Shown one piece after another: positions 37,879-42,122 of a stretch of 52,192 nt of DNA (position 1 is the first letter of the stretch; each line of letters starts with the position of its first letter). Made by a program: the position numbers and the translations under genes. The notes beneath the pieces are model-generated. The model saw only the letters and a program-made list of their open reading frames with translations. It searched no databases and had not been told where the DNA came from. The DNA is from Candidatus Omnitrophota bacterium (GTDB lineage: Bacteria; Omnitrophota; Gorgyraeia; JABMRN01; RBG-13-46-9): NCBI GenBank assembly GCA_016782445.1, contig JADHYM010000004.1:1-52192 (forward strand), read 5' to 3'.

Positions 37879-38135
37879 ATTAAAAAGGTGAATGGGCATG
37901 CTTTCGGGGCCACCTCGGCGACCTGAATAACAAGAAGGTTCCGGGTAGTGTTTCCGCTTGACGTTTCCGCCAGAGGCGGATCAGCCTCTGGCTGAAGCCA
38001 CAAAATCGTCTGAAACCGACTCTACTTCGAATTTCTACTACAGTCGGTTCCCCGAGCCGAAGGCGAAGGGAAAGGTCGCGCTGCGCCCTTCTGCTCCGTT
38101 GAAGTTGCACAAATATTATATGCAAGTTTCTTGCC

Positions 38136-40129: not shown

Positions 40130-41328
40130 GCGAAAAAAGAATAAAAATACTGAAGGATGTTTGTACCGGCTGCACGCTATGCGTCAAGGTATGCCCCTTC
40201 GGGGCCATAGCCATGAAGGATAAGAAAGCTCTTATAGACTACGATAAATGCAATCTTTGCGGCGCCTGCGTAGAGACCTGCAAATTCAACGCTATAGAAC
40301 TAAAAACTATTCAGAGAAGCTATGACCATTCATCCTACAAGGACGTGTGGGTTTTTTGCGAGCAGAAAAAAGGCGTTATCCAATCGGTAGCCTATGAGCT
40401 TTTGGGTGAGGGAAAAAAGCTTGCCTCGAAACTCGGCTGTAAAGTTTGCGGCGTTCTTTTGGGAGAAAATGTAAAGGAAAAAGTCCCAGAATTATTCGCG
40501 CGCGGCGCTGATATCGTATACCTTGTTGATTCGCCGCACCTCAAATATTACCAGAACGAGCCATACACCAAGGTTTTTATCGAACTCATAAACGAATATA
40601 AACCCGCTGTTCTTCTTTCGGGCGCCACCACCATCGGCCGAAGCCTTACTGCGCGGGTCGCAATCAACGTAAACACAGGCCTTACTGCTGACTGCACAGG
40701 GCTCGACATAGACGAAAAGGAAAAACTTCTTCTCCAGACACGTCCCGCGTTTGGCGGAAACATAATGGCTACGATCATAACCCCGAACCACAGGCCCCAG
40801 ATGTCCACGGTAAGGCATAAGGTTATGCAGGAAGCCGCGATAGACGAAAGCCTTAAAGGAAAGCTCGTAGAGAAAACCTACAAGGATAATATTCTTTCTT
40901 CCAGGACAAAGCTCATCGACATAGTCGAGGAAATAGAGGAAACCATAAACCTCGCGGAAGCCGATATTATTGTCTCGGGCGGAAGGGGCCTCGGAGGGCC
41001 GGAGAATTTTAATATCATACGTGAGCTTGCTCTAACGCTCGGAGGAGCGGTTGGAGCTTCGCGGAGTGCCGTTGATGCCGGATGGATACCCTATTCGCAT
41101 CAGGTGGGGCAGACGGGAAAAACCGTGTGCCCGAAAATATATATTGCCTGCGGTATAAGCGGGCAGATACAGCACCTTATCGGCATGCAGTCCTCAAAAA
41201 TAATCATCGCGATAAATAAAGATCCTGACGCGCCCATCTTTAAGGTTGCTACCTACGGCATCATCGGCGACCTCTTCGAATTCGTTCCCGCACTCACCAA
41301 AAAATTCAAGCAAGTACTGAGTAAATAG
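40126..41328 (+). CDS. etfA: Electron transfer flavoprotein alpha subunit with N-terminal two-cluster ferredoxin domain
   Basis: CTGCTLCVKVCPFGAIAMKDKKALIDYDKCNLCGACVETCKFNAIEL then EtfA; IVSGGRGLGGPENF...YSHQVGQTGKTVCPKIYIACGISGQIQH. Confidence 0.94.
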   Translation: MSEKRIKILKDVCTGCTLCVKVCPFGAIAMKDKKALIDYDKCNLCGACVETCKFNAIELKTIQRSYDHSSYKDVWVFCEQKKGVIQSVAYELLGEGKKLASKLGCKVCGVLLGENVKEKVPELFARGADIVYLVDSPHLKYYQNEPYTKVFIELINEYKPAVLLSGATTIGRSLTARVAINVNTGLTADCTGLDIDEKEKLLLQTRPAFGGNIMATIITPNHRPQMSTVRHKVMQEAAIDESLKGKLVEKTYKDNILSSRTKLIDIVEEIEETINLAEADIIVSGGRGLGGPENFNIIRELALTLGGAVGASRSAVDAGWIPYSHQVGQTGKTVCPKIYIACGISGQIQHLIGMQSSKIIIAINKDPDAPIFKVATYGIIGDLFEFVPALTKKFKQVLSK

Positions 41329-41375
41329 TCACACCTAACTGCTTTCAGACCCCACCTGCCACGCCGGAATATTTT

Positions 41376-41611
41376 CAAGCTGCCGTTCGGGGCATTGCTT
41401 TGTGGTCCCCACTCGGGGGTATGCTACGCGGGATCGCTCGACCGCCCCAGCGAGGCGGTCTTCGCTCTAAAAAATCCCTCGCTCTTTTCGCCTTGCTACG
41501 CCTGCGGCGTGGCGAAGCGAAAAACCATGCCCGCTCAGGATTTTTAGGTCCCGCTACGCATACCCCGTCGGGGGCCCCTTTTTATATAGCAATGCCCCCA
41601 AAGGCAGCTTG
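41376..41611. repeat. ~236-bp imperfect palindromic element
   Basis: Outer arms caagctgccgttcggggcattgct / agcaatgcccccaaaggcagcttg, with further internal complementary segments. Confidence 0.75.
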
Positions 41612-41641
41612 TAACCCATTCCGTCCCTGGGACGGGATGGA

Positions 41642-41990
41642 TGTATTCAGACCCCACCTGCCTAAGCGGCGAGTGCATTCAACCGTAATTCTCCGCCAGA
41701 GGCGGATCAGCCTATGGCTGAAGCAATTTACGAAGTTGATGTTCAAGAAAATGCGCCCGAGTCCTTACTAGCTTGGGCGCGAAAGACCTTACTATCTCAA
41801 CGAGTAAATTGCATGTCAGCCTTCGCCGAGTAGAATCTCAGGATGGTAAGCTTCGGCTGATCCGCCGAAGCTCTACGCGACAGCAATAGAGCGAAGGCGG
41901 AAATTCAAGGGCAGAATGCTCAAGGGCATTATTTTAAGATATTTATCATAAGTTTATGCCGAGCAGCGTGGCAGTTGGGGTCTGAATACA
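41642..41990. repeat. ~349-bp structured palindromic element (MITE-like or structured RNA)
   Basis: 21-bp terminal IR (20/21) tgtattcagaccccacctgcc / ggcagttggggtctgaataca; internal helices gcattc/gaatgc, tccgcc/ggcgga, gcaatttac/gtaaattgc, gcgcccgagt/gcttgggcgc. Confidence 0.75.
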
Positions 41991-42122
41991 CTATCCATAA
42001 AGCGGAAGCGAGGCGCCTATCCTCCGAGGGAGCGACGAGTGAAAGCAATGCCCGTAACCCTCTATTAATCAAGCTGCCGGAAGGATGCCCGCTTGCTGCT
42101 TGGAAAAAGATTTTTTTAGCAC

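Follow-up and report, generated by a model that had tools for sequence, protein, structure and literature searches.

ERIC, also called IRU, is a 127-bp palindrome of enterobacteria, and other small bacterial MITEs include NEMIS (Correia), RUP and YPAL; NEMIS exists in shorter and longer forms of 107 and 155 bp that differ by an internal block (PMC2229807). Rickettsia palindromic elements (RPE), of 105–146 bp, occupy many sites, including the tmRNA and RNase P RNA genes, and often lie in-frame in protein genes (PMC2229807). REP, BIME and REPIN repeats are distinguished by GTAG or CGTC tags and by RAYT transposases (PMC3733652, PMC3116915), and in A. variabilis, T. roseum and H. neapolitanus, REP dimers are reported to sit inside longer palindromes (PMC3733652). 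Finally, mitochondrial double-hairpin elements and repetitive hairpin-forming elements of fungi and sponges are tiny, patchily distributed and potentially mobile, and are located in intergenic regions and in some RNA genes (PMC2800124).

The locus studied here, in a window of 52,192 nucleotides (the whole stretch of DNA that was analysed), lies between etfA, which ends at position 41328, and a gene for a 71-aa MerR-type regulator that is followed by smc. The SMC protein is closest in identity to those of two Omnitrophota genomes (37–40% across long partial spans), no more than a hint of affiliation. In our view the feature is likely to be a composite built of non-autonomous mobile palindromes, in which a cross-phylum double-hairpin module has entered an ERIC/MITE-like carrier; the case for DNA-level mobility of both comes from their copies and empty sites. 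Like ERIC, NEMIS, RUP and YPAL, the element is non-coding, intergenic and palindromic, has inverted repeats and occurs in long and short forms that differ by an internal block. Going by their descriptions, ERIC and the small MITEs differ from it in sequence and size; moreover, its ends are not TA, no target-site duplication was seen, and it has a branched fold with inserted modules that are free-standing in other phyla. ERIC, NEMIS, RUP, YPAL and RPE are nonetheless the nearest kinds for the carrier. The features of the locus are as follows.

41642..41990, plus strand: composite palindromic element, a ~230-bp core with two inserted modules (inverted repeats, fold and copies)
41642..41662, plus strand: left arm of the terminal inverted repeat, TGTATTCAGACCCCACCTGCC (four copies compared, with 5 compensated pairs)
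41673..41691, plus strand: left arm of the core stem, GTGCATTCAACCGTAATTC (copy alignment)
41692..41721, plus strand: module 1, a 30-bp double hairpin, TCCGCC-AGA-GGCGGA TCAGCC-TAT-GGCTGA (in the window copy only, among the near-complete copies)
41723..41812, plus strand: central stem GCAATTTAC/GTAAATTGC, which contains GTTGA/TCAAC as well as the GCGCCCGAGT/GCTTGGGCGC hairpin (fold; compensated pairs in the G007 relative)
41752–41781: the GCGCCCGAGT/GCTTGGGCGC hairpin, within the central stem
41816..41901, plus strand: module 2, an 86-bp double hairpin, TCAGCC-(33)-GGCTGA TCCGCC-(29)-GGCGGA (common to the window copy and the copy on contig C27)
41902..41919, plus strand: right arm of the core stem, AATTCAAGGGCAGAATGC (copy alignment)
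41924..41961, plus strand: core side hairpin, GGGCATTAT...TATGCC (in the right half that the truncated copy on contig C1 retains)
41970..41990, plus strand: right arm of the terminal inverted repeat, GGCAGTTGGGGTCTGAATACA (compensated pairs as for the left arm)
41340..41363, minus strand: stray copy, 24 bp long, of the right end of the element, where the minus strand reads GCGTGGCAGGTGGGGTCTGAAAGC

An earlier note had described a palindromic element with 21-bp terminal inverted repeats and nested helices, and these repeats and all of the named stems were recovered. The terminal arms are 21 nt long, 95% complementary and separated by 307 nt, and the stems GCATTC/GAATGC (41675–41680/41914–41919) and GCAATTTAC/GTAAATTGC (41723–41731/41804–41812) are present, as is the GCGCCCGAGT/GCTTGGGCGC hairpin. 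Two helices required a different anatomy. The proposed TCCGCC/GGCGGA closing stem (41692–41697/41896–41901) exists, but it joins two different inserted modules, which are oppositely oriented and hence pair with each other. Likewise, GCTTCGGC-TGATCC-GCCGAAGC (within 41849–41872) is present but straddles the point at which the two hairpins of the 86-bp module meet. In agreement with the note, no convincing ORF accounts for the element; the longest one to overlap it (41400–41771, TTG start) extends across the repeat and is probably a spurious ORF.

The 349-bp element folds as RNA at −154.6 kcal/mol, compared with −101.9 ± 5.0 for dinucleotide shuffles (z −10.6, 0/100). With DNA parameters the z score is −9.0, and RNA folding of the opposite strand gives −10.9 against dinucleotide shuffles. 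The fold is thus far beyond chance and strand-symmetric, as in a palindrome; since both strands fold alike, the fold alone points to no single transcribed strand. When the whole 870-bp intergenic region is folded, an alternative appears in which the right end of the element pairs with the stray copy (at 41344–41364).

A search of the element's own genome (1.0 Mb in 37 contigs, 86% complete) showed that the element is not unique: besides the window copy there are three near-complete copies, on contigs C27, C31 and C37, a right-half copy on C1 and the 24-bp stray end. All copies lie outside credible ORFs and each is beside different genes. The neighbours are etfA/merR, tonB-like/marR-like, PEP carboxykinase-like and, for the relative described below, groES, where names other than etfA, MerR and SMC are our reading of the translations. 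The C31 and C37 copies are ~230 bp long and fold as a single long branched hairpin, and substitutions split the near-complete copies into two pairs, window with C27 and C31 with C37. Core sequence is near-invariant across copies; the end sequence varies while complementarity is retained. With a covariance model of the 135-nt core, a search of 147 genomes of the class yielded one further relative (E 1e-14), in genome G007, which belongs to the same family but another genus; it is diverged, has the same central stem and lies upstream of groES. An exact 22-bp core pattern had no match among GTDB genomes and viral contigs, a set that possibly does not include the element's own genome. The alternative in the earlier note of a non-autonomous mobile element is thus supported by dispersed same-genome copies, with and without internal modules and intergenic beside unrelated genes, and further by the relative in another genus and the lack of a convincing ORF.

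Compared with the C31 and C37 copies, which are continuous across both module positions, the window copy contains two clean extra blocks of 30 bp (41692–41721) and 86 bp (41816–41901), and the C27 copy contains the 86-bp block only. The G007 relative is empty at both positions. The two blocks face each other on the core stem, beside a GAATTC/GAATTC segment; the filled left site is without two bases (GA) that empty copies have, and the flanks of the 30-bp and 86-bp blocks show no duplication at either. Both blocks follow one grammar, TCxGCC-loop-GGCx'GA and then TCyGCC-loop-GGCy'GA, as adjacent hairpins, with loops of 3 nt in the 30-bp block and of 33 and 29 nt in the 86-bp block; G007 has 95-bp versions of the module with loops of 35 and 36 nt. 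From the filled and empty states among copies and the emptiness of G007 at both positions, the order of events would most simply, by parsimony, be an unfilled ancestral state, insertion of the long-loop 86-bp form, which would then have been copied along with the carrier, and last the insertion of the short-loop 30-bp form. If so, one locus allows a mobile palindrome to be compared directly with its empty form and with two hairpin insertions made one after the other, so that the order of events can be read. The window also contains a second 30-bp double hairpin, at 37966–37995.

Covariation, which the earlier note had proposed to look for in homologues, was found in both parts of the structure. 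In the terminal stem, five pairs are changed on both sides among the four own-genome copies, a count that none of 500 shuffles reaches; slid versions yield at most one. The central part likewise has five compensated pairs in the G007 relative (0/500 shuffles; slid versions at most two). In the 30-bp module, the x and y letters are complementary in nearly all cases among the relatives, with C-G, A-T and T-A occurring at both positions, under a search pattern that demanded no pairing at x and y; pairing between the module's two 3-nt loops is weak. Such covariation would result from selection on a DNA or an RNA hairpin, and compensation in a palindrome can reflect correction through template switching rather than selection, so it is no demonstration of RNA function.

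The 30-bp module is not confined to this carrier. It is present in 17/59 relatives, with 0 for a reversed-pattern control, and scanning of GTDB species genomes for TCCGCCNNAGGCGGATCAGCCTNNGGCTGA gave at least 113 stretches. Among the matches listed, hosts include Patescibacteria (many lineages), Omnitrophota, Ignavibacteria and Bacteroidetes, together with Deltaproteobacteria, Stahlbacteria/WOR-3, Elusimicrobia and Dehalococcoidia; most are metagenome-assembled genomes, and organism names are uncertain accordingly. Nine module stretches (L207–L215) occur in eight IMG/VR viral contigs, a possible route between phyla. Module sites are mostly intergenic, an open stretch of >150 aa being found at 22% of them versus 81% of random sites. 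In most cases the flanks are pyrimidine (T-rich) on the left and purine (A-rich) on the right; this is the reverse of an intrinsic terminator, and a terminator role was rejected. Direct repeats of 6–7 bp flank 12/118 copies, against 0.8 expected from re-paired flanks; several of these modules sit in short tandem repeats, and the window copy is without direct repeats. At L092, L139, L152, L169, L182 and L192, the flanking direct repeats are 7–11 bp long, some of them in longer repeat runs; they may be target-site duplications or tandem repeats that were there beforehand. A preference for hairpin loops in general found no support (6 versus 2.8 expected).

With respect to known systems, the module resembles REP, BIME and REPIN in being an inverted pair of short GC-rich hairpins, and its nesting in longer palindromes has precedent there (PMC3733652), but its hairpins are 15 bp long and touching, and it has no close link to the single Y1 gene of the own genome. 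GTAG lies within 8 bp of the module in 16/148 cases and CGTC in 2/148, with ~8% expected by chance (an estimate), so there is no excess of either tag. Two copies, L010 and L011 (C28:2410–2439 and C3:84733–84762), each occupy the centre of a REP-like palindrome with a GTAG tag, whose sequence is GTAGGGCAGGCTT[module]AAGCCTGCCCTAC or a close variant of this. Rickettsia palindromic elements are similar in that they are palindromic repeats in many places, RNA genes included; unlike those often found in-frame in protein genes, the 30-bp module is mostly intergenic. The mitochondrial double-hairpin elements appear nearest in form: like them, the module is tiny, patchy, intergenic, found in some RNA genes and potentially mobile, and it has the two adjacent hairpins and variable loops by which such elements are recognised. 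However, those elements are structurally and compositionally diverse, whereas the module keeps one stem-loop grammar across bacterial phyla. Neither carrier nor module shows the full set of defining features tested for duplication-bearing MITEs or tagged REPs.

The module is also associated with tRNA genes. For 20/118 module copies, an intact tRNA gene lies no more than 100 bp away, compared with 2.0 expected. When the module is removed, the closed junction matches a tRNA gene in 17/129 cases at a score of at least 34, a threshold set after 26 gave too many control matches; controls matched in 0/258 nearby and 1/258 distant cases. These junctions are mostly within the D, anticodon and T loops. 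The idea that the module is a removable intron of an intact tRNA was rejected, as in 84 cases ARAGORN predicted no tRNA across the closed junction. Since the tRNA pieces around the module are partial copies, several of which adjoin an intact gene, interruption of a working tRNA by the module is not implied. Module-containing partial tRNA copies beside intact tRNA genes were seen in several phyla (L145, L157, L107, L106, L151, L133, L115 and L161).

Other explanations of the carrier must be weighed against this evidence. It is unlikely that it is a classical MITE, derived from a DDE insertion sequence by internal deletion and mobilised by that IS through its terminal inverted repeats. Its terminal inverted repeats, small size, lack of a convincing ORF and dispersed copies fit such an origin, but a target-site duplication, another check raised in the earlier note, was found in the flanks of none of the 230-bp element copies (window, C27, C31 and C37), and no IS with TTCAGACCCCACCTGCC-type ends was found in the own genome or the other 291 genomes of the class that were searched. 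In those 292 genomes (the own one being 86% complete), a search for an autonomous element with the same ends returned, apart from the ends of the element itself, no more than a single isolated match in another genome. Moreover, the retention of complementarity while end sequence varies is not required by a sequence-specific DDE transposase. The other proposal of the earlier note, a structured ncRNA, here considered together with a cis-regulatory RNA transcribed with etfA or the merR–smc genes, draws on the very stable fold, the compensated pairs and the near-invariant core. Against it, an Rfam scan of the whole window gave no family match above the gathering score, both strands fold equally, the copies share no neighbour gene, standing beside unrelated genes in either orientation to them, and two copies do without 116 bp of the window's structure; we regard an RNA as very improbable.

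Just as improbable, in our judgement, are passive intergenic palindromes grown through replication slippage and template switching with no transposition enzyme. Correction would explain the compensated arms, and some modules do sit in short tandem repeats of 6–7 bp, but this would not account for the near-identity of copies that stand at separate loci, for the precision of the empty and filled states or for the recurrence of one 30-bp design in many phyla. As for the module itself, strong conservation of its stems and GATC junction across phyla could indicate a functional site, structural or bound by a protein, that is immobile and has come under selection in many bacteria independently. This seems quite improbable given its patchy presence even among relatives, its occurrence in broken tRNA copies at a frequency that nearby controls do not approach, the existence of one site in both filled and empty states, and flanks that are the reverse of those of an intrinsic terminator.

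If the feature is indeed a composite of mobile palindromes, the carrier would be a snap-back repeat of ~230 bp, bounded by TTCAGA...TCTGAA and scattered among the intergenic regions of this genome; a second mobile repeat, with TCxGCC/GGCx'GA stems, would have entered the carrier stem twice, at facing positions. Movement would occur at the DNA level, through DNA that is single-stranded (as on the lagging strand) and folded, with the enzyme supplied in trans. The most plausible mover, which we put forward tentatively, may be a Y1 (IS200/RAYT-type) transposase, which would need no fixed sequence provided that the hairpins form. If etfA upstream, or the MerR-type regulator gene and smc downstream, are affected at all, this would be incidental, through a hairpin formed in the transcript. 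Y1_Tnp (PF01797) occurs in 17/17 module-bearing relatives and 32/42 others (exact one-sided p about 0.02, uncorrected for phylogeny); for so common a family, this co-occurrence is no more than suggestive. The own genome has one Y1 transposase gene, which none of the 230-bp element copies adjoins; a 30-bp module lies ~1.1 kb from it on contig C28. An IS110/IS1111-type mover was rejected, as PF02371 is absent from the own genome and most module-bearing relatives. The missing target-site duplications and autonomous partner, together with the position of the Y1 gene, count against the composite reading too. Because there are few element copies (5), recombination or duplication of a larger block could also have been the copying route.

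For the 30-bp module taken alone, a broader reading is possible, which we judge somewhat less likely than not: it may be one mobile DNA family that has spread through many bacterial phyla and ranks with the smallest free-standing mobile elements of bacteria, in which structure rather than full sequence would be recognised under the rule TC-x-GCC-NNA-GGC-x'-GATC-y-GCC-TNN-GGC-y'-GA, with long loop inserts tolerated and with insertion between pyrimidine and purine runs, often in tRNA-gene loops and in other palindromes. A limited literature search found no earlier description of such repeats in Patescibacteria or Omnitrophota. The occurrence of a double hairpin of fixed grammar across phyla, many of them uncultivated groundwater lineages such as these two groups, and its clear association with broken tRNA copies raise the testable question of how non-coding, almost sequence-free elements pass between distantly related bacteria, and whether it is Y1 transposases that move them.

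The element is also flanked by other repeats. Directly 5' of it, folding of the whole intergenic region detected another long palindrome at 41376–41611, with ends CAAGCTGCC/GGCAGCTTG, stems GGGGCATTGCT/AGCAATGCCCC and more. A repeat at 42007–42100, GAGGCGCCTATCCTCCGAGGGAGCGACGAG...AAAGCAATGCCCGTAACCC..., has roughly 20 partial copies in the genome, some of which belong to other palindromes of ~250 bp (L022 and L066).
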